Shown here: one piece after another, positions 2,041-12,400 of the stretch
Numbering within the stretch: the first letter of the stretch is position 1
Layout of the letters: every line of letters begins with the position of its first letter
Source: an uncultured Algibacter sp.
GTDB taxonomy: Bacteria; Bacteroidota; Bacteroidia; Flavobacteriales; Flavobacteriaceae
Direction of reading: 5' to 3'
Assembly (NCBI RefSeq): GCF_947490405.1
Contig: NZ_CANLGU010000001.1
Span: 372,001-436,000, forward strand
DNA length: 64,000 bases
The notes under the pieces: model-generated
Told to the model about the DNA's origin: nothing
Database searches by the model: none
The model's input: the letters and a program-made list of their open reading frames with translations, nothing else
Made by a program: the position numbers and the translations under genes

Positions 2041-2111
2041 GCGGATATAAAACCACCTGTGCTGAACTTGTTTCAGTATTAAAACGATTTCATATCCGCG
2101 AAACATTAGGT
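2041..2111 (+). repeat. attC-like inverted structure, upstream side of a possible gene cassette
   Basis: GCGGATAT (2041-2048) and ATATCCGC (2092-2099) form a perfect 8-bp inverted repeat around a 43-nt spacer. Five bases later comes ATTAGGT (2105-2111), one mismatch from the integron R'' core GTTRRRY. The matching left-hand R' box is weak (ACCTTCG near 2027). The layout resembles an integron attC site, but no integrase is in view and no covariance search was possible. Confidence 0.4.
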
Positions 2112-2127
2112 GCAAGTTGAAAAAAAT

Positions 2128-2703
2128 ATGAAGGAAATAAGACAAAGAAAAGGATTTGAAACCCGGTCTTATAAAATAGACTCGGATTCTGAATTTGTAG
2201 AAGTTGAATACAATTCAATTAAGGACAAATTAAAATATAAAATTCATCTGACCGAAGTCGGAAACGAAATTCAGTACGAAGCGGACAACATAATCGTGGG
2301 GAAAATATTTGTTGGAATTACAAGTATCATAACTTTAATCTGTGTCGGAATTTATTTTTTAGGAAATCCAGAAAAACCTGGAACATACGTTGCCAATGCA
2401 ATAATTTGGGGAGCACTATCAATTTTTGGATTTTTAAAACCACACAAGGATGACATTTTAATTGCGAATGGGAATAAACTAATAAGACTATTTCGAACTA
2501 AACCAAACGAAGAAAAAGTTACAGAATTTGCTAAAAATTTAATCAAAATAGCAAATAATAAAAAGAAAGAAATGCTCATCAATTTTGACTTGGAGGAAGA
2601 ACAATTTATGGGAAATATGCAATGGCTAATGAATATGAAAATGATTGGCAAATCGGAATTAGAAGAATTAAAATCGGAATACAAACTAAAAAAACTGATA
2701 TAA
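2128..2703 (+). CDS. Hypothetical membrane protein in a cassette-like setting
   Basis: 191 aa from the ATG at 2128, preceded by an A-rich stretch; an upstream in-frame GTG at 2110 lies inside the flanking repeat and is less likely. I do not recognise a family. The protein has a hydrophilic N-terminal region, two predicted membrane segments (about residues 57-76 and 84-102, the second following a GNPEKPGTY linker), and a lysine/glutamate-rich cytoplasmic-type C-terminal half. It stands alone on the plus strand between ffh and an oppositely oriented lipoprotein gene. A perfect 9-bp inverted repeat (TTAGGTGCA at 2106-2114, TGCACCTAA at 2709-2717) brackets it. It is probably accessory DNA; function unknown. 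Confidence 0.75.
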   Translation: MKEIRQRKGFETRSYKIDSDSEFVEVEYNSIKDKLKYKIHLTEVGNEIQYEADNIIVGKIFVGITSIITLICVGIYFLGNPEKPGTYVANAIIWGALSIFGFLKPHKDDILIANGNKLIRLFRTKPNEEKVTEFAKNLIKIANNKKKEMLINFDLEEEQFMGNMQWLMNMKMIGKSELEELKSEYKLKKLI

Positions 2704-3168: not shown

Positions 3169-4920
3169 TTAGTTTTTTTCTAGCACTAGGATACGCTCTA
3201 TTTCTCCGTTTGAGTTGTAGTCTTTTAACTCAATTCTATTAGGTGTAATTTCTACAATTTTCCATCTGTGCCTTAACTCGCTAAATGGTTCGTTTTGTGT
3301 TCTGAAATTTAAACCTAAGTATAAACCGTTGTTTCTGTACGCTAACCAAGAGCCTATGTAGTTGTTGCCATCGCCCTCGGCAAATAACCTACCGTTTTCA
3401 TTAAATCCAACAACATAATCGTTATAGTTTTCAGTTTCATTTACACCTTGGTCTAGATAAGAAGCTACTACCCACTCGCCGTTTGACAATACATCGCTTA
3501 TGTAGTCTATGTCTTCATCCTCATCTGGACAGTGTCTTCTTAAAATTAATTTACTATTTTCATTGGTTAACTTTATTAATCCTGGTTCTAAGAAATTGAT
3601 TACCCATATTAACTTTAAATCTGGCCTACCTTCTAAATCTATTTTTAAGGTAATTTTATCGTCTCTTAAACCAATATCATAAGTCCCTTCAATTAACTCG
3701 CCTTCAACTCTTAGTTTTACAACATCATCATCATAGAATTTTAAAGGTGTACCTATGTAATCTATTCTTTTACTTATATTATTAATTCTTATGCTATCTA
3801 CTCTCCATAAGCATTCTTTTAAGTAATTTTTTACTCTTTCTTTTGTAATGGTGTTTATGACAACATCACAATTTCTCTTCATGATGATTCTATTTCCTCC
3901 TGCTTCGTATAGTTTAATTTTACCTTCTTCAATATCATAAACAATCCATTCTAGAGTAAAATCTGCTAAGGTGTCAAATTCTAATTTTAAAAGTGCTCCT
4001 CTTTCTGTTACGCGAGTACTCCAAGTTCCTGTTAACACATCTCCTCCTCTTGCACGCATTGTTACAGTATCGTTTTCTTTAAAGTTTAATGCGTACTCTT
4101 TGTATTGTGCTGTGTTATCTTGATTGTTTCTTTTAAACTCATACACTACCCATGGGCATTTTTTTAAGTACTCGTCTAAACGTTCTTTTGTAAAATCGTC
4201 ATCTCCATAATCGTTATCATCATCTTCATCACAAAGATCTCTAGCTTCTTTAATTGTTCTTGCTAATTCTTGATTGTTATTAACATCTACAGTTGTTCCG
4301 TCTGCATACTTTAAAGTAATTGGAAAATTAAGACTTGCTATAACTTCTTTGTTTTTAACACGCTTTAAAAAACGGTATAATTGTCTGTCGTTTTCAATAG
4401 TTACAACATCTATAATTTGAAAATCTGTATTGAATACTGAAAAAGAAATTGGGTATTGAAAATCGATACACTCAATATCGTCATCTTCTTCGTTTTCTTC
4501 TTGACATTCTTCTATAAGCTCTTCTAACTCATCACGATTATTAAGCACTATTTCTTCATGATCTGATAAAATAATAGTTATTGGAAAAATGATTTCTAGT
4601 TCATCTTCATCATCTTCAAACTGATCAAAAATGGCTTCAATAACATCGAAATCTTCTTCAGAATCAATAATAATTTCTAATCCATTAACTTTTACGGTAA
4701 TTGGTAATTTTACTGATGTACAACTAGCGTTATCAATAATATTATCCGAAGATCCGTCCATAATAGATGTTGAGAACAGTAAGCCTGTAAGCTCAGACTC
4801 AGCTGCAAGCGCTTCACTTTCTTCTTGAGGAGTAATATCTGTTTCTTCATCTTGACAAGAAGAAAACAATAAAAGGGCAAAAAAAGGAATTAGTAATAAT
4901 GTTTTTAAATTAGTTTTCAT
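3169..4920 (-). CDS. Large acidic multi-module surface lipoprotein, predicted ECF-sigma target
   Basis: 583 aa from the ATG at 4920. The signal peptide ends in a lipobox (LLFSSC, Cys22) followed by QDEETD, an acidic stretch like Bacteroidota lipoprotein surface-export signals. Residues of about 55-240 contain four similar modules, each starting PIT or PIS (PITVKVNG, PITIILSD, PISFSVFN, PITLKYAD) with an acidic helix after it. About 245-583 contains three roughly 110-residue modules that each open with a W-V motif (CPWVVYEF, CLWRVDSI, GEWVVASY) and look lipocalin-like. The function is not known. It is transcribed divergently from the sigma factor gene and has a promoter matching the one before fecR, so it is probably controlled by that sigma factor. 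Confidence 0.85.
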   Translation of the reverse strand: MKTNLKTLLLIPFFALLLFSSCQDEETDITPQEESEALAAESELTGLLFSTSIMDGSSDNIIDNASCTSVKLPITVKVNGLEIIIDSEEDFDVIEAIFDQFEDDEDELEIIFPITIILSDHEEIVLNNRDELEELIEECQEENEEDDDIECIDFQYPISFSVFNTDFQIIDVVTIENDRQLYRFLKRVKNKEVIASLNFPITLKYADGTTVDVNNNQELARTIKEARDLCDEDDDNDYGDDDFTKERLDEYLKKCPWVVYEFKRNNQDNTAQYKEYALNFKENDTVTMRARGGDVLTGTWSTRVTERGALLKLEFDTLADFTLEWIVYDIEEGKIKLYEAGGNRIIMKRNCDVVINTITKERVKNYLKECLWRVDSIRINNISKRIDYIGTPLKFYDDDVVKLRVEGELIEGTYDIGLRDDKITLKIDLEGRPDLKLIWVINFLEPGLIKLTNENSKLILRRHCPDEDEDIDYISDVLSNGEWVVASYLDQGVNETENYNDYVVGFNENGRLFAEGDGNNYIGSWLAYRNNGLYLGLNFRTQNEPFSELRHRWKIVEITPNRIELKDYNSNGEIERILVLEKN

Positions 4921-4955
4921 AGTATGTGATTTTGGGTTAAACATAGCGTTTTGAT

Positions 4956-4989
4956 TATAAAACAGGATAACTTTAAAAATTCCTACCCT
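4956..4989 (-). promoter_or_regulatory. Predicted ECF-sigma promoter of the lipoprotein gene
   Basis: On the minus strand, AGGGTAGGAA (4989-4980), 14 bp, CTGTTTTATA (4965-4956). The same two blocks with identical spacing precede fecR at 5725-5758. It ends 35 bp before the lipoprotein ATG. Assignment to the adjacent sigma factor is inference from this duplication. Confidence 0.7.
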
Positions 4990-5067
4990 AGATTCTAAAA
5001 AAATTCAAAAAAAATTAAATACTGAGCTCCAAAAAGCTTTATTTTAGTGGCATAACTACTAATATTA

Positions 5068-5583
5068 ATGGGAAAACAATTGCATGAAAATATTTGTGAA
5101 GAGCATTTATTTTCTACTATTTTTAACAAACACGCTAAAGATTTACACAACTTTTTATACTATAAGTTTGGAGATTTATTAAATCCGAAAGATAAAGTAC
5201 AGGAAGCTTTTATTAAATTATGGGAGAATTGTGCTAAAGTTTCTCCTGATAAAGCAAAGAGTTTTGTGTTTACTACAGCCAATAATTTAATGTTGAATGA
5301 AGCAGCGCATCAAAAAGTGGTTTTAAAACATCAGCAAACTAAACCGAAAATGTCTACTAATGAAAGTCCTGAATTTTTAATGCAGGAGGCTGAGTACAAT
5401 GATAAATTACAAAGAGCACTTTCTAATTTAACAGATGCGCAACGCGAAGCTTTTATGATGAACCGTGTTGAAGGTAAACGCTTTAAAGAAATTGCAGAAA
5501 CTTTAGGAGTTTCAACTAAAGCGGTTGAGAAACGTATTTATGGAGCTTTGACAAAGTTGAGGAAGGATATTAAGGAGTTGTAA
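5068..5583 (+). CDS. ECF RNA polymerase sigma factor (FecI-like)
   Basis: 171 aa, the usual ECF size. Region sigma2 lies around residues 18-75 (LHNFLYYKFGD to VQEAFIKLWEN). Region sigma4 lies around 110-168, with LTDAQREAFMMNRVEGK and the helix-turn-helix FKEIAETLGVSTKAVEKRI. It directs RNA polymerase to a small regulon and is normally held by the FecR protein encoded next. The start is the ATG at 5068; no AGGGTAGG motif precedes it, so its own transcription probably uses another promoter. It is followed by a heptamer array, an A18 tract and then fecR, making a FecI-FecR-TonB receptor cascade. Confidence 0.95.
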   Translation: MGKQLHENICEEHLFSTIFNKHAKDLHNFLYYKFGDLLNPKDKVQEAFIKLWENCAKVSPDKAKSFVFTTANNLMLNEAAHQKVVLKHQQTKPKMSTNESPEFLMQEAEYNDKLQRALSNLTDAQREAFMMNRVEGKRFKEIAETLGVSTKAVEKRIYGALTKLRKDIKEL

Positions 5584-5584
5584 G

Positions 5585-5661
5585 TTGTTGGTTGTTGGTT
5601 GTTGGTTGTTGGTTGTTGGTTGTTGGTTGTTGGTTGTTGGTTGTTGGTTGTTGGTTGTTGG
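5585..5661 (+). repeat. Heptanucleotide tandem array, 11 x TTGTTGG
   Basis: Eleven exact copies of TTGTTGG begin 2 bp after the sigma factor stop codon. The G pairs recur every few bases on the sense strand, compatible with two-tier G-quadruplexes in the RNA. Exact identity of all copies suggests recent slippage, so copy number probably varies between isolates. Confidence 0.97.
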
Positions 5662-5704
5662 AAAACTATATTTTTAAACTGAATACTGAAAATTTAAGTT
5701 TTTG

Positions 5705-5722
5705 AAAAAAAAAAAAAAAAAA
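5705..5722 (+). repeat. A18 homopolymer tract
   Basis: Eighteen consecutive A residues end 2 bp before the AGGGTAGGAA block of the fecR promoter. Tracts of this length slip readily; at this position it would act like a variable upstream element. Confidence 0.95.
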
Positions 5723-5724
5723 TA

Positions 5725-5758
5725 AGGGTAGGAAAAAATAAAAGTTAACTGTTATATA
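5725..5758 (+). promoter_or_regulatory. Predicted ECF-sigma promoter of fecR
   Basis: AGGGTAGGAA (5725-5734), 14 bp, CTGTTATATA (5749-5758), ending 14 bp before the fecR ATG. It matches the element on the minus strand at 4989-4956 in both blocks and in spacing, which suggests autoregulation of the anti-sigma/receptor genes. Confidence 0.7.
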
Positions 5759-5772
5759 GTTGTATAGAAATT

Positions 5773-6669
5773 ATGAAACGAGAAGAACTCATATCGAAAT
5801 GGTTAGATAACAACCTAAATAATCAAGAGTTTGAAGCTTTTAAAAAGCTTGAAGACTACGATGATTTGGCAAAGTTAAATACCAACTTGCAAGCTTTTAA
5901 AGCTGATGACTATAATACATCTTTTGAATTAGAAAATGTATTATCTGCTATTAAAAGTAAAAAGCAAGTACCAACTCATTGGTTAAAACCATTTATGCGT
6001 GTTGCTGCTATACTTGCAGTTTGTTTTAGCTTGTATTATTTTACCACTACTATAGACACGACTATTTCTACTGAGTATGCTCAAAAAACAACCATAGAAT
6101 TACCAGATGCATCTAGTGTTTCCCTCAACGCAAAATCAAACTTAGTTTTCAATAAGAAAGACTGGAAGCAAGACCGCGAAGTTACACTTCAAGGAGAAGC
6201 CTTTTTTAAAGTAGCTAAAGGATCATCATTTAAAGTAAAAACAACATCAGGAACCGTTACGGTTTATGGTACTCAATTTAATGTAAAACAACGGGACAAT
6301 TATTTTGAGGTTATTTGCTACGAAGGATTAGTTGGGGTGACTTATAACTCCCAAGAAACAAAATTAAAACCTGGAAACAGCTTTTTAATTATTGATGGGA
6401 AAACAATTGCTAAAGAAAAAGAAAACCGCACAATGCCTTCGTGGTTAAATAACGCTAGTACGTTTAGAAGCTTACCTTACAAAACTGTTATTGCAGAATT
6501 TGAGAGACAATACAATGTTCAGGTTACGTTATTAGGTATAGACTCAAATCAGCTTTTTAGCGGTAGTTTTGCTCATGACAATATAGAACTAGCTTTAAAA
6601 TCAATTACCTTACCTTTACATGCAACGTATAGCAAATCAAACAATACGATTACATTAAGAGGTGAATAA
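5773..6669 (+). CDS. FecR-family anti-sigma factor
   Basis: 298 aa inner-membrane protein. A cytoplasmic N-terminal domain (residues 1-70), one membrane segment (about 75-91, MRVAAILAVCFSLYYF), then a periplasmic FecR domain (TTIELPDASSVSLNAKS, then GEAFFKVAKG and VYGTQFNVK at about 108-200). The C-terminal domain (about 225-298, LPYKTVIAEFERQYNV) is typical of Bacteroidota members. It should hold the sigma factor encoded at 5068 until the TonB receptor signals. It overlaps the receptor gene by 8 bp, pointing to translational coupling. Confidence 0.95.
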   Translation: MKREELISKWLDNNLNNQEFEAFKKLEDYDDLAKLNTNLQAFKADDYNTSFELENVLSAIKSKKQVPTHWLKPFMRVAAILAVCFSLYYFTTTIDTTISTEYAQKTTIELPDASSVSLNAKSNLVFNKKDWKQDREVTLQGEAFFKVAKGSSFKVKTTSGTVTVYGTQFNVKQRDNYFEVICYEGLVGVTYNSQETKLKPGNSFLIIDGKTIAKEKENRTMPSWLNNASTFRSLPYKTVIAEFERQYNVQVTLLGIDSNQLFSGSFAHDNIELALKSITLPLHATYSKSNNTITLRGE

Positions 6670-9013
6670 AGGCTTTATTCTTTCTATTTTTTTATCTGTA
6701 TTTTTTTTGAATGTTGCTTCCTTTAAAGCGCAAACCACTCAAAAAGAAAAGCAACCTCTTATTGCTATTTTAAAAATACTTTCTGAAAAATATGATGTTA
6801 GCTTTTCTTATGTTGATGCCATAATTAAGAATAAAGATGCTACGACTCCAGAGGTTAACTTATCATTAAATGAAGCTATAGAATTTCTTCGATTAGAAAC
6901 ACAATTAGATTTTGAACTTCTTGATAATGGTTTTATAGTTATAAAATTAAAGAAACAAGAGGCATCAAGTTTTAAAATACAAAACCTTGATGAAGTTGTT
7001 GTTACTAATTATTTAACCTCTGGTTTAACGAAACTCAATGACGGCTCTTTAACCATAAAACCTAAAACCTTTGGCATTTTACCTGGGCTTATTGAGCCTG
7101 ATATTTTACAAACCATACAAGCAATTCCTGGAGTTTTAAGCACAGATGAAACCGTTTCAAACATTAATATTAGAGGTGGTACTCATGATCAAAATTTATT
7201 GCTTTGGGATGGTATTAAAATGTACCAGTCTGGTCATTTTTTTGGCTTAATTTCAGCGTTTAACCCGTATACTACAAAACATGTTAATGTATATAAAAAT
7301 GGAACACGAGCTAAATATGGTGATGGTATTTCAAGTATTATTGATATGCATTTACCAGATGAAATAGATAATGAGTTTGAAGCAGGCTTAGGATTTAATT
7401 TAATTAATGCAGACGGTTATGTTAAAGTACCATTATCAAGAAATACCGAACTCCAATTATCTACACGTCGCTCTATAACAGACTTGATAAACACCTCAAC
7501 CTACGACCAGTATTTTAAACGTGTTTTTCAAGATTCAGACTTTACTAAAGCCAAAGAAAACAACAATACAGTATCGCAAAACGAAACGTTTTATTTTTAT
7601 GATATTGCTGCAAAATTTCTTTATGATATTTCTAAAAAAGATAAAGTAAGATTTCATTTTTTAAATGTGAACAACAATTTAAATTACGATGAGCAATCAA
7701 CAATCAACAACAGAAATGAAGCTCTAAACAGTAAATTATTACAACAAAATCTAGCACTAGGAGTAACCTATACCAGAGATTGGAATAAACACCTCGCTAC
7801 TACAGCACAGGTTTATGTTTCCCATTACGACTTAGATGCTACAAATTTTGATGTAATTAACGACCAGCGGTTAATTCAAGAAAACGAAGTTTATGATGGT
7901 TCTGCAAAATTTGATATTAATTACTTCAAAAACCAGTTAAAAATAAATAGCGGCTACCAGTTTACAGAGGTTGGTATTAGTAATTTAGAAGATGTTAACA
8001 ACCCTAATTTTAGGAGTTTTATTAGAAACGTTTTAAGATCTCACGCTATTTATGGAGAAACAGGGTTTCTTTCTAAGAATGCAAAATCCAAATTAACTTT
8101 AGGGGGGCGGTTAAATTATATTGAAAAATTCAATATGTTATTTGCCGAACCTCGATTAAGCTTTTCTCAGCGGTTTCTAAACCATTTTAGGTTTGAGGTT
8201 TTGGGCGAGTTTAAAAGTCAAACCACATCTCAAATTATCGATTTACAAAACGATTTTTTAGGCATTGAAAAACGCCGTTGGGTTTTATCTAACAACAACA
8301 AGGAAGTTATAAGGAATGATATTCAAACCATATACCCTATTCCAGTATTAAAAAGCAAACAACTTTCAGCAGGTATACATTACAACAAAAACAAGTTATT
8401 GATTAGTGCTGAAACCTATATAAAAAAAGTTAATGGTATAACTACACGCAGTCAAGGATTTCAAAACCAATATCAATTTAGAAACGAGGTTGGCAGCTAT
8501 GAAATTAAAGGTTTAGATGTTTTGCTTAATAAACAATTTAGCGATATTATTAGTAGCTGGATTTCATATTCGTACAGTAAAAATGAATATACATTCGATA
8601 ATTTAAATGATGGTAATCCCTTCCCAAATAATACTGACATTACTCATGCCATAACCTTTGCAGGAACCTATACAAATAAAAATATCAAATTTGCTGCTGG
8701 TTTAAATTGGCATTCGGGACTACCAAATACTGAACCTGATATTAACCAAAACCCTTCAAACAGCGATATTGAATATCAAGCACCAAATAGTAGCCGATTA
8801 AAAGAGTATTTAAGAATAGATTGCTCTGCAACATATGCTTTTAACATCTCAGATTCAGCAAAAGCTAGTATTGGTGCATCAGTATGGAATGTGCTAAATA
8901 AAAACAACATAATCAACACCTATTATGCTTTAAATGAAGATGATGAGATTGTACCAATTGAAAACAGATCATTAGGTATAACTCCAAATGTAAGTTTTAG
9001 AGTTAGTTTTTAA
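6662..9013 (+). CDS. TonB-dependent outer-membrane receptor with STN signalling domain
   Basis: 783 aa, starting with GTG at 6662 inside the end of fecR. The signal peptide ends near FKAQ. The STN domain (about residues 30-95, LSEKYDVSFSY to DNGFIVIKLKK) is the periplasmic piece that contacts FecR. Then come a TonB box (LDEVVVT), a plug domain (IQAIPGVLSTDETVSNINIR, with RGGTHDQNLLLWDGI) and the 22-stranded beta-barrel, ending in F (VSFRVSF). There is no carboxypeptidase-like SusC domain and no SusD partner, so this is a FecA-type signalling transporter. The ligand is unknown. T7 and T8 runs lie in the signal peptide coding region. Confidence 0.95.
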   Translation: MNKGFILSIFLSVFFLNVASFKAQTTQKEKQPLIAILKILSEKYDVSFSYVDAIIKNKDATTPEVNLSLNEAIEFLRLETQLDFELLDNGFIVIKLKKQEASSFKIQNLDEVVVTNYLTSGLTKLNDGSLTIKPKTFGILPGLIEPDILQTIQAIPGVLSTDETVSNINIRGGTHDQNLLLWDGIKMYQSGHFFGLISAFNPYTTKHVNVYKNGTRAKYGDGISSIIDMHLPDEIDNEFEAGLGFNLINADGYVKVPLSRNTELQLSTRRSITDLINTSTYDQYFKRVFQDSDFTKAKENNNTVSQNETFYFYDIAAKFLYDISKKDKVRFHFLNVNNNLNYDEQSTINNRNEALNSKLLQQNLALGVTYTRDWNKHLATTAQVYVSHYDLDATNFDVINDQRLIQENEVYDGSAKFDINYFKNQLKINSGYQFTEVGISNLEDVNNPNFRSFIRNVLRSHAIYGETGFLSKNAKSKLTLGGRLNYIEKFNMLFAEPRLSFSQRFLNHFRFEVLGEFKSQTTSQIIDLQNDFLGIEKRRWVLSNNNKEVIRNDIQTIYPIPVLKSKQLSAGIHYNKNKLLISAETYIKKVNGITTRSQGFQNQYQFRNEVGSYEIKGLDVLLNKQFSDIISSWISYSYSKNEYTFDNLNDGNPFPNNTDITHAITFAGTYTNKNIKFAAGLNWHSGLPNTEPDINQNPSNSDIEYQAPNSSRLKEYLRIDCSATYAFNISDSAKASIGASVWNVLNKNNIINTYYALNEDDEIVPIENRSLGITPNVSFRVSF

Positions 9014-9075
9014 AAAAACACCCTTTCAACCATTTAACTAACTGAATTTCAACGAATAATTAAAATTCCACATAC

Positions 9076-9117
9076 AACTAATTAAAATTTTGAGTAATTT
9101 TCAAAAAATAATTAGTT
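9076..9117 (+). promoter_or_regulatory. Hairpin ending 1 bp before the DUF1800 start codon
   Basis: AACTAATTA (9076-9084) pairs with TAATTAGTT (9109-9117), and inside it TTTTGA can pair with TCAAAA. The ATG of the next gene is at 9119. The structure could mask translation initiation or be a protein-binding dyad; it lacks the T tract expected of a terminator. Confidence 0.5.
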
Positions 9118-9118
9118 A

Positions 9119-10762
9119 ATGGCATCACTTAATCCACTTGGAGGTACTCTAGATTTGCGTAAAGCTAAACATCTACTTAGAAGATCTACCTTTAATTATA
9201 GCAAGGAGCAATTAGATATTTTTGTTGGTATTACAGCCACTGATGCTGTGAATAGTTTAACCACTGCATCAACCAATACGTTACCTGAACCCTATGACCC
9301 ACTACCTAATGAGGCACCAGACGGTTACTGGACTTCATCAACAGAACTTCCAAATTCTTTTGATGGACAAACACGAAAGCGTGCTATAGTTACGGCTTGG
9401 TGGTGGCATAATGCTATGAGTCAGATAAGTTTAAAACACAAACTATCGTTTTTTCTTCATACTTGCTTTACCGTTGGAAAAGATTCAGGAGTTGGAGCTG
9501 CAACTTATTTTTATGACCACATTAGACTATTAGACTATTATGCTCTTGGCAACATAAAAACATTAGCAAAAAAAATTACTTTAGATAATGGGATGCTAGA
9601 TTATCTGGACAATACCCAAAATAACGATAATAACCCTAATGAAAATTATGCACGAGAATACTTAGAATTATTTACAATACTTAAAGGTGAGCAAATTGGA
9701 GAAGGGAATTATACCAATTACACCGAATACGATATCCAACAAGCTGCAAAAGTGTTTTCTGGATTTAAAAAACGTGCAGATAGAAGTGATATCGATCCAG
9801 ACACAAACATTCCTACTGGTTACAACAATTACAATAGACACGATAAAACAAATAAAACCTTTAGTCCTGCCTTTGGCAGCCAAGTAATAAACGCTGCTAC
9901 TAATGCCGCTGATATGACTCGAGAACTTAACGATTTTGTAGATATGGTTTTTGCGCAGCAAGAAACTGCAAAAGCATATTGCAGAAAGTTATATCGCTAT
10001 TTTGTAAAAAGTGAATGGAATGATGCTGTTGAAACGGATATTATTACACCTCTATCTCAAATTTTAATTGATAACGATTTTGAAATTCTACCCGTGGTAA
10101 CTACGCTGCTGTCTAGCGAACATTTTTATGATGCAGATGATGCTGATGCTACTGATAATATAATCGGGAGTATTATAAAAAGTCCTCTGCAACAATTATC
10201 TGAAATATGCTCTATGTTTAGCGTAACATATCCAGATCCAACAACAGATGCATATAGATATTATAATAACTTCTTTTTAAGATTTATTCATAATACTTAT
10301 ACGAAAGCAGCTGGGATGGAATTATATAATCCTGATTCGGTTGCTGGTTATCCTGCTTATTACCAAGAACCCAATTTTGATAGAATTTGGTTTTCATCTA
10401 ATACTTTAATAGGTCGTTATAAACTTATAGAGAGTCTTATAATAGGAAGGAACACTATAATACCAAATGCGCAAATTTATGCTAAATTAGATACTGTTGC
10501 CTTTACTAATAATAAAATATCCAACCCTTCTAATCCTGTAATGCTAATTACTGAAATTTCAGACTTACTATACCCTGAATCAATTGATAGTAATAGAATT
10601 AACTATTTCAAAACATTTTTAGTTGATGAAGGATTCCCTAATTATTATTGGACGGATTTATGGAATCAATATATAAATGATAATGATGACACCTCTGTAA
10701 AAGTTAGATTAAATGCGCTTATTACTGCCATGGTTAATGCTGCAGAATTTCAATTAATGTAA
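9119..10762 (+). CDS. DUF1800 family protein
   Basis: 547 aa, the standard length for DUF1800. The N-terminus has the family motif KAKHLLRRSTF (about residues 15-25). Further hallmarks are TAWWWHNAM, the LSFFLHTCFTVG stretch, NYAREYLELFT and the KLYRYFV region. The biochemical role of DUF1800 is unknown; the gene is nearly always paired with a DUF1501 gene, as here (3-bp gap). No clear signal peptide is visible. It lies 105 bp after the TonB receptor with a hairpin in between, so co-transcription with the sigma/FecR/receptor genes is possible but not shown. Confidence 0.9.
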   Translation: MASLNPLGGTLDLRKAKHLLRRSTFNYSKEQLDIFVGITATDAVNSLTTASTNTLPEPYDPLPNEAPDGYWTSSTELPNSFDGQTRKRAIVTAWWWHNAMSQISLKHKLSFFLHTCFTVGKDSGVGAATYFYDHIRLLDYYALGNIKTLAKKITLDNGMLDYLDNTQNNDNNPNENYAREYLELFTILKGEQIGEGNYTNYTEYDIQQAAKVFSGFKKRADRSDIDPDTNIPTGYNNYNRHDKTNKTFSPAFGSQVINAATNAADMTRELNDFVDMVFAQQETAKAYCRKLYRYFVKSEWNDAVETDIITPLSQILIDNDFEILPVVTTLLSSEHFYDADDADATDNIIGSIIKSPLQQLSEICSMFSVTYPDPTTDAYRYYNNFFLRFIHNTYTKAAGMELYNPDSVAGYPAYYQEPNFDRIWFSSNTLIGRYKLIESLIIGRNTIIPNAQIYAKLDTVAFTNNKISNPSNPVMLITEISDLLYPESIDSNRINYFKTFLVDEGFPNYYWTDLWNQYINDNDDTSVKVRLNALITAMVNAAEFQLM

Positions 10763-10765
10763 ATT

Positions 10766-12400
10766 ATGAAAAGAAGAAATTTTATAAAGCTTTCGGCATC
10801 AGCTTCTGTTATCGGTTTAACACCCTTTGAATTACAAGCGGCTATAAAATCGTTTATGCCATATGTATCTTGCCCCGATATTTCTAATAGAAAATTAGTT
10901 TTAATAAATCTAGCAGGTGCTAATGATGGTTTAAATACAATTATCCCATTAAATCAGTACGATACTTATAGCAATTTAAGACCTACAATTAAAGTACCTG
11001 AGTCTGGAGCTAATCAATATATTTCTTTAGACGCAACACTCCCAGACAACCAACAAGTGGGTCTAAATCCAGCTTTAACTGGTTTTAAATCACTTTATGA
11101 CAAAGGTTGGTTACGTATACTTCAATCTGTTGGCTATCCTTCTCAAAACAAAAGTCATTTTAAATCTACCGATTTATATTTAACAGGGAATGATGGTAAC
11201 AGTCTATTGAACGGACCCGACACGGGTTGGATAGGGCGTTTTATGGAATTATACTACGCAGATTTAGTTGTTGAAACTTTTCCTTTAGCAGTGGAAATAG
11301 GCTCTAATAAAACCTCGCTTGGTTTTCATGGTGAGGAAGCACATGGCTTATCGTTAAATATTACAGGTCAAGACCCTTCTGGCTTTTACTCTATATTAAA
11401 TGGGCTAGGTGGCGCACCACCAACTAATATTCCAGATTCGGATTTTGGAAAACAATTAGAATATATAAACAATACAGATTCACTTTCAAACACCTATGCT
11501 GAATCTATCTCTAAAGCCTTTAATTCAGGTCAAAATGATGTGAGCTATCCAGATACTGATTTAGCAGACCAATTAAAAACAGTAGCGCGTTTAATTAGTG
11601 GCGATTTAGGGTCAAAAGTGTATATGGTTCGGATTTCTGGTTTTGATACACATAATTTGCAAGTACAAGGAGCAGGCGATCTTTTGGGAAGACATCACGA
11701 ATTATTAGCCGAATTATCTGGAGCTTTGAAGGCTTTTATGAATGATATTGACAACCAAAATATAGCTGATGATATTGTTGGTATTACCTTTTCTGAATTT
11801 GGAAGAAAAGCTAGAGAAAACGGGAGTTTCGGAACAGATCATGGAGAAATAGCTCCTATGTTTGTTTTTGGAAAACCAATAGCAGGAGGTGTTTCTGGAA
11901 TAAATCCAGATTTAACAGAAGCATCAGAGAGCAACAATTGGCAAATACAAACAGTACAATATGACTATAGACAAACCTTTGCAACATTGCTTCAAAACTT
12001 TTTAGGAGCAGACAATACGATTATAGATGCCACTTTTTTCAATCATACAATAAATGATAGTTTTTCAAACCTTAAATTAGATGATTTATTAAAAGCTGAA
12101 TTTAAACTAGATAACGAGTGTTTTGGTTCTGCCTTATCCACTAATACCGCAGAGGATGTTAAAAATTGGTTAGTTTATCCAAATCCTTTTAGAAATACTA
12201 TCAACATTTCTGGGATAGAAGATATAAGTTCTCTTAAATATAGAATTTATAATAGCTCTGGTGTTTTAATTATTAATAATAGTGGTGACATCTCTAATGG
12301 AAAATTAAGCTTAAATTTAAGACGTCTTCCAAACGGGATTTATTTAATTGAAATTTTAACTGGAGGTAAAAAAGAAATTCATAAAGTGATTAAAATTTAA
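10766..12400 (+). CDS. DUF1501 family exported protein with T9SS sorting domain
   Basis: 544 aa. The N-terminus MKRRNFIKLSASASVIG looks like a twin-arginine-type signal. The core (about residues 40-440) is DUF1501, a relative of the sulfatase/alkaline-phosphatase fold, with LVLINLAGANDGLNTI, SGFDTHNLQ and TFSEFGRKARENGSFGTDHG. The last 75 or so residues (VYPNPFRNTINISG to IYLIEILTGGKKEIHKVIKI in two pieces) are a type A T9SS C-terminal sorting domain, so the protein is expected at the cell surface or outside the cell. Substrate unknown. Confidence 0.93.
   Translation: MKRRNFIKLSASASVIGLTPFELQAAIKSFMPYVSCPDISNRKLVLINLAGANDGLNTIIPLNQYDTYSNLRPTIKVPESGANQYISLDATLPDNQQVGLNPALTGFKSLYDKGWLRILQSVGYPSQNKSHFKSTDLYLTGNDGNSLLNGPDTGWIGRFMELYYADLVVETFPLAVEIGSNKTSLGFHGEEAHGLSLNITGQDPSGFYSILNGLGGAPPTNIPDSDFGKQLEYINNTDSLSNTYAESISKAFNSGQNDVSYPDTDLADQLKTVARLISGDLGSKVYMVRISGFDTHNLQVQGAGDLLGRHHELLAELSGALKAFMNDIDNQNIADDIVGITFSEFGRKARENGSFGTDHGEIAPMFVFGKPIAGGVSGINPDLTEASESNNWQIQTVQYDYRQTFATLLQNFLGADNTIIDATFFNHTINDSFSNLKLDDLLKAEFKLDNECFGSALSTNTAEDVKNWLVYPNPFRNTINISGIEDISSLKYRIYNSSGVLIINNSGDISNGKLSLNLRRLPNGIYLIEILTGGKKEIHKVIKI

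Follow-up and report, generated by a model that had tools for sequence, protein, structure and literature searches.

Paired candidate ECF sigma factor promoters in a lipoprotein–FecR–TonB receptor cassette of Flavobacteriaceae

In a 64,000-nt stretch of DNA from an uncultured Algibacter sp. (the whole stretch analysed, referred to below as the window), an ECF sigma factor gene is flanked by two copies of the motif AGGGTAGGAA-N14-CTGTTnTATA. This arrangement raises the question of whether the two sites are promoters, which sigma factor would recognize them, and which genes of the locus they would serve. An earlier note on this DNA had placed the motif, with equal 14-nt spacing, on the minus strand before a lipoprotein gene and on the plus strand before fecR, and both copies were located as described. 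The first, a predicted promoter at 4961..4989 (−), reads AGGGTAGGAA-TTTTTAAAGTTATC-CTGTT(TTATA) and stands just before the lipoprotein ORF. The second predicted promoter, 5725..5753 (+), reads AGGGTAGGAA-AAAATAAAAGTTAA-CTGTT(ATATA) and lies between the sigma gene and fecR. A perfect tandem array of the 7-base unit GTTGTTG (11.1 copies, 5584-5661) follows the stop codon of the sigma gene, and a run of 18 A residues (5705-5722) comes just before the fecR site.

The divergent gene (ORF at 3169..4944 on the minus strand, with an alternative possible start at 4920, at the signal peptide MKTN) codes for an acidic, multi-module lipoprotein of 591 aa. Searches with its product found no family in Pfam at E <= 0.001 or in NCBIfam at E <= 0.01; at E <= 1, matches to PB1 and META alone were seen, both sub-threshold. 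An AF2 model (mean pLDDT 77.7) contains four strand-rich repeats, each closed by a helix, followed by three barrel-like modules, and its pTM of 0.37 restricts the reading to single modules. One module is matched in length by the solved lipocalin-like protein 4qrl (Foldseek; TM 0.58 by target length, E 0.0017); Foldseek matches with low TM scores, the top-ranked ones among them, were set aside. Between ffh and the lipoprotein gene there is a 197-aa ORF (2110-2703, plus strand) that had no Pfam match at E <= 1.

The remaining genes of the locus are on the plus strand. The 171-aa sigma factor (5068..5583) contains Pfam domains Sigma70_r2 and Sigma70_r4_2, both above cut-off; it scored 105.1 bits against NCBIfam TIGR02985 (Sig70_bacteroi1), which is under the curated cut-off of 126.4, and 51.4 bits against the model of the ferric citrate FecI itself (NCBIfam NF041727, cut-off 260). 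It is followed by a FecR-type anti-sigma/regulator of 298 aa (5773..6669; Pfam FecR, 71.4 bits, and FecR_C, 38.8 bits, both above cut-off) and by a TonB-dependent receptor of 783 aa (6662..9013) with a Plug domain. The N-terminal domain of the receptor resembles FecR_C (22.6 bits in the window against a cut-off of 24.4, 26.2 bits in L018, and 27.6 bits in L026) and gave no match to the STN family. No SusD family member was found among the eight window proteins scanned, which included the receptor and the downstream genes to 12785. Two of these downstream genes, coding for a DUF1800 protein (9119..10762; Pfam) and for a DUF1501 protein with a type IX secretion tail (10766..12400; Pfam), may belong to the same transcription unit. 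They are present in four of the five congeners with the locus and absent from the region examined in G008, and are thus an optional part.

Two similar sites could arise by chance or by recent copying of a short stretch, and be functionless. The two spacers, 14 nt each, are partly common to both sites, as copying would have it, and a looser form of the motif, GTAGGR-N16-TGTTNTA, has three sites in the Algibacter genome (the third within a 548-aa ORF) against two for the reversed control, so that this form is not specific by itself and little weight can be placed on loose matches alone. Relaxing it further, to YAGGR-N16-TGTYNTA with an ATG after it, gave 17 matches against 6 in the control, many of them inside ORFs. 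The specific motif behaves differently. In the window, AGGGTAGG-N14..18-CTGTT had two matches, and 100 dinucleotide shuffles had none, in agreement with the earlier claim that the window contains no further copy. A scan of the complete 3.69-Mb genome with AGGGTAGG-N14..17-CTGTT also returned two matches, and none with the reversed pattern; both are intergenic, so that the specific motif does not recur in coding sequence. Finally, AGGGTAGGR-N16-TGTTNTA was found at 74 sites in 51 of 149 family genomes, while the reversed control was found at none.

The same two intergenic gaps were next compared in relatives. Ten genomes of the genus, including the source genome, were searched; eight matched the lipoprotein, and five besides the source genome carry a full-length orthologue (71-92% identity). 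In all five, the order of the lipoprotein, sigma, fecR, and receptor genes is identical, and both sites are present upstream of the orthologous genes with small changes at most: the fecR copies of G009 and G004 have G as the first motif base, and G007 has GGGA in place of GGAA in its copy before the lipoprotein gene. When the divergent gaps of seven genomes are aligned, both boxes of the lipoprotein promoter contain runs of invariant bases. More distant copies in the genus, whose lipoproteins are 26-39% identical, keep the layout unchanged, with the lipoprotein gene divergent from sigma, fecR, and the TonB receptor gene.

Cassettes like that of the window form a family, to which the window locus belongs. 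A lipoprotein profile had matches in 271 of 397 Flavobacteriaceae genomes. A first set of 173 loci was composed of 7 paralogue and 5 orthologue regions of the genus, 80 family regions picked from among the best matches listed, 80 named contigs, and the window. The cassette, i.e., a lipoprotein gene divergent from an ECF sigma–fecR–TonB receptor gene series, was present at 169 of these loci (the exceptions being L123, L162, L171, and L185), a count that gives no rate for all 271 genomes, since the loci were selected by high lipoprotein similarity. One locus contained two cassettes, and the resulting 170 cassettes were reduced to 147 once same-sequence repeats were removed. Cultured carriers of the cassette include Algibacter luteus, Flaviramulus basaltis, and Seonamhaeicola algicola.

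The unit conserved across the cassettes is YAGGR-N16-TGTY, and the window motif is a clade-specific version of it. This core was recognized by eye and searched for in the 220 nt preceding the lipoprotein gene and the 110 nt preceding fecR. It was found in 130 of 147 lipoprotein upstreams and in 140 of 147 fecR upstreams, with both sites present in 125 cassettes; the shuffle expectation is about 1.0 and 0.5 upstreams, respectively. The strict core is absent from the remaining 17 lipoprotein and 7 fecR upstreams. On the reverse strand, the core was found in none of the 147 upstreams of either gene. Other gaps between the boxes, from 10 to 23 nt, gave 0-2 sequences each, except for 21 nt (29 and 27), an excess consistent with the internal repeat of GGGTAGG. 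Although the sigma–fecR gap is highly variable (32 to 1107 nt), the distance from the fecR site to the estimated start stays within 13-30 nt.

Because the core was derived from the same 147 cassettes, the pattern was fixed and then tried on 40 further loci, of which 39 contain a cassette (L247 does not) and 32 are new and non-redundant. The core was present in 26 of the 32 lipoprotein upstreams and in the same number of fecR upstreams (both in 22), and was again absent from the reverse strand. Among the 10 fresh cassettes with a miss, nine have a one-base variant with unchanged spacing, and in the tenth, L267, the start is seemingly misplaced. With the core in most cassettes of both sets, the pair kept in every congener with a full-length orthologue, and the genome controls described above, we reject chance or recent copying as the origin of the two sites and consider it extremely improbable.

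The core is nearly absent upstream of the sigma gene itself: within 200 nt, it was found in 1 of 147 cassettes (L136, 178 nt away) and in none of the 32 fresh ones. The predicted targets are thus the lipoprotein gene and the fecR–receptor unit, with sigma excluded, and since the second promoter separates sigma from fecR, sigma apparently stands outside its own feedback. Judging from these sequence comparisons, we consider it very probable that the two sites are promoters read by the ECF sigma factor whose gene lies between them, and that they serve the lipoprotein and fecR/receptor genes and not the sigma gene. YAGGR would be the −35 element and TGTY the −10 element, held at a fixed gap of 16 nt. 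For sigma binding, transcription, the signaling chain, and the part played by the lipoprotein, we infer the following scheme. An extracellular cue at the TonB-dependent receptor would act through FecR to release or activate sigma. Active sigma would then transcribe the divergent lipoprotein gene as well as fecR and the receptor gene, and perhaps the genes of the DUF1800 and DUF1501 proteins. Activation would raise the amounts of receptor and regulator, and not that of sigma. Such a feedback layout, with an induced anti-sigma factor and receptor and a non-induced sigma factor, is what the promoter positions predict.

This predicted wiring can be compared with that of known systems. In E. coli, FecI directs transcription of the receptor gene, and fecIR is not driven by FecI (PMC9249621). 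The FecI/FecR/FecA system for ferric citrate is similar to the locus studied here in that an ECF sigma factor, a FecR regulator, and a TonB-dependent receptor with an N-terminal extension are encoded together (PMC9249621). It differs in that here a predicted promoter stands between sigma and fecR, which would make fecR a target, and in that the account of Fec in the same part of PMC9249621 includes no counterpart to the divergent lipoprotein and its matched promoter. In haem signaling by HasI/HasS/HasR, sigma is not autoregulated, yet drives the anti-sigma gene, i.e., the wiring is as predicted here; unlike the cassettes, this system belongs to another phylum and has a known ligand, and no divergent lipoprotein family appears in the part of PMC9249621 that describes it.

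An alternative is that both genes are controlled by a separate transcription factor that binds the motif, or by another sigma factor that uses it as a promoter. The Algibacter genome has three FecR genes (E <= 0.001) with the core upstream of all three, including the third, which has a different sigma factor. In other genomes, sites are found before genes for which the 6 kb examined contains no sigma gene, as in L228. The core as such is, therefore, not private to one sigma factor. On the other hand, across the 147 cassettes the two boxes stand at a fixed 16-nt gap and point toward the gene in every case, with none on the reverse strand, and the distance to the start is short and narrow. Moreover, a TGGGA variant is present in both promoters of the same cassette in L261 and L273 (fresh set) and in L020 (first set). 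These features fit a promoter for the cassette sigma factor better. We thus regard control by a separate factor or another sigma factor as unlikely, and prefer recognition by the sigma factor of the cassette.

The latter reading was examined further using the sequences that surround the core, which fall into several types. The window type is GGGTAGGAA ... CTGTTnTATA; the second type, found in L018, L019, and L021, is CAGGAnTTTTAAAG ... GTTGTTATAT; further types are GTAGGGT ... TTGTT and GTAGGGTAAA ... GTCTTA. In 22 genomes in which at least two cassettes were examined, the two promoters of one cassette were more alike than promoters of different cassettes in 57 of 58 within-genome comparisons (core positions included), a clear result; one comparison gave the opposite outcome, and six were skipped because a site was missing. 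Outside the core, mean similarity within own promoter pairs was 0.54 (135 of 147 cassettes usable), compared with 0.39-0.42 for foreign pairs when the sigma factors are less than 60% identical and 0.51-0.54 when they are more than 60% identical. In a core-anchored comparison, an own pair exceeded on average 83% of the foreign pairs with sigma factors less than 60% identical, a moderate result. Own pairs were barely above pairs from cassettes whose sigma factors are more than 90% identical (0.541 vs 0.538 outside the core), and shared ancestry accounts for part of the signal. A ranking of the 147 cassettes by raw 36-mer similarity was a weak test, with the own fecR upstream placed first in 14 cases and at a median rank of 28; in our opinion, AT-rich spacers and related cassettes blur this comparison. 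When sigma factors were clustered at 60% identity, two promoter types fell into one cluster, and the sigma residues that emerged are therefore not proposed as specificity determinants.

That promoters match within cassettes speaks for direct recognition by the sigma factor of the same cassette. The conserved sites and this matching also support the view of the earlier note that the lipoprotein gene is a direct member of the sigma regulon, as far as sequence comparison can indicate. The two outcomes that the note had named as refuting it, a lack of the motif before orthologues in relatives and an equally frequent random occurrence in coding sequence, are both contradicted by the results above. 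It is quite possible, and we propose it tentatively, that the cassettes, of which there are often several per Flavobacteriaceae genome, are insulated units in which sigma has co-evolved with a private promoter pair, with little cross-talk to paralogues. If so, nature would have provided a large collection of sigma factors matched to their promoters, and by comparing them a specificity code for Bacteroidota ECF sigma factors could be deduced. In any case, the matched pairs of promoters allow the specificity of sigma for its promoters to be tested directly.

Promoters of Bacteroidota ECF sigma factors appear to be little mapped, judging from a limited literature. In Bacteroides thetaiotaomicron, ECF sigma factors have been linked to a TGTT box near −10, in the setting of non-canonical promoters and a polysaccharide locus (PMC12596196), and the TGTT box near −10 is as in the cassette core. 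A study of F. psychrophilum describes, for SM6, a CGT box in the −10 region that its authors link to ECF sigma factors, with type IX secretion and other genes (PMC9723704). In both sources, as far as their available parts go, the target genes are different and there is no paired lipoprotein/fecR layout (PMC12596196, PMC9723704). A literature search covering titles and the beginnings of abstracts, with most subscription papers outside its scope, yielded no paper that we recognized as dealing with the cassette or its promoter pair. The present analysis adds the core common to the cassettes, the recurrence of their layout in the family, the match between promoters of one cassette, and the apparent absence of sigma from its own feedback. 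For a sensor cassette that is widespread, the comparison provides a concrete promoter model, with the lipoprotein family named as its main predicted target.

The earlier note had also offered the motif as a concrete target for this sigma factor. That proposal is supported by the sequence evidence, with the addition that the motif is one version of a family core and that the set of targets is not always two. Twenty of the AGGGTAGGR-N16-TGTTNTA sites that lie outside the previously sampled loci were examined. Eighteen are outside long ORFs, and two (L226 and L233) overlap an opposite ORF. Of the 18, five are in further cassettes (L232 and L234-L237), and three precede genes for proteins with modules common to the lipoprotein (L227, L228, and L229). 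Eight of the remaining 10 have a gene within 90 nt downstream, and the products of seven of these eight genes look secreted or lipid-anchored (by inspection, not by profile). Some of the non-cassette genes behind window-type sites in L218-L231 code for long proteins that we take to resemble CotH or VTC relatives, and others for proteins with what are presumably GYYGDGYY-like repeats. Sites before such further genes indicate that the targets of the motif in other genera can number more than two.

A comparable case exists in the Algibacter genome, where a second-type site, CAGGA...TTGTT, precedes the gene of a 166-aa lipoprotein located far from any cassette (C4:325952-326449; L214:3450-3950, minus strand). 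This lipoprotein was found in two other genomes among the 10 genus genomes searched, and the site is kept in both orthologues. The gene is likely a distant target of the paralogous sigma factor. The third FecR locus of the same genome (L213, C4:242500-256000) has SusC/SusD-type genes and a divergent sigma gene, with the core before fecR. In L018, the region downstream of the paralogous lipoprotein gene and on the same strand (8463-11636, plus strand) codes for a tRNA_anti-like protein, a CBM96 protein with a type IX secretion tail, a DUF5777 barrel, a YceI protein, and a cytochrome-like protein, the last identified by a sub-cut-off match only.
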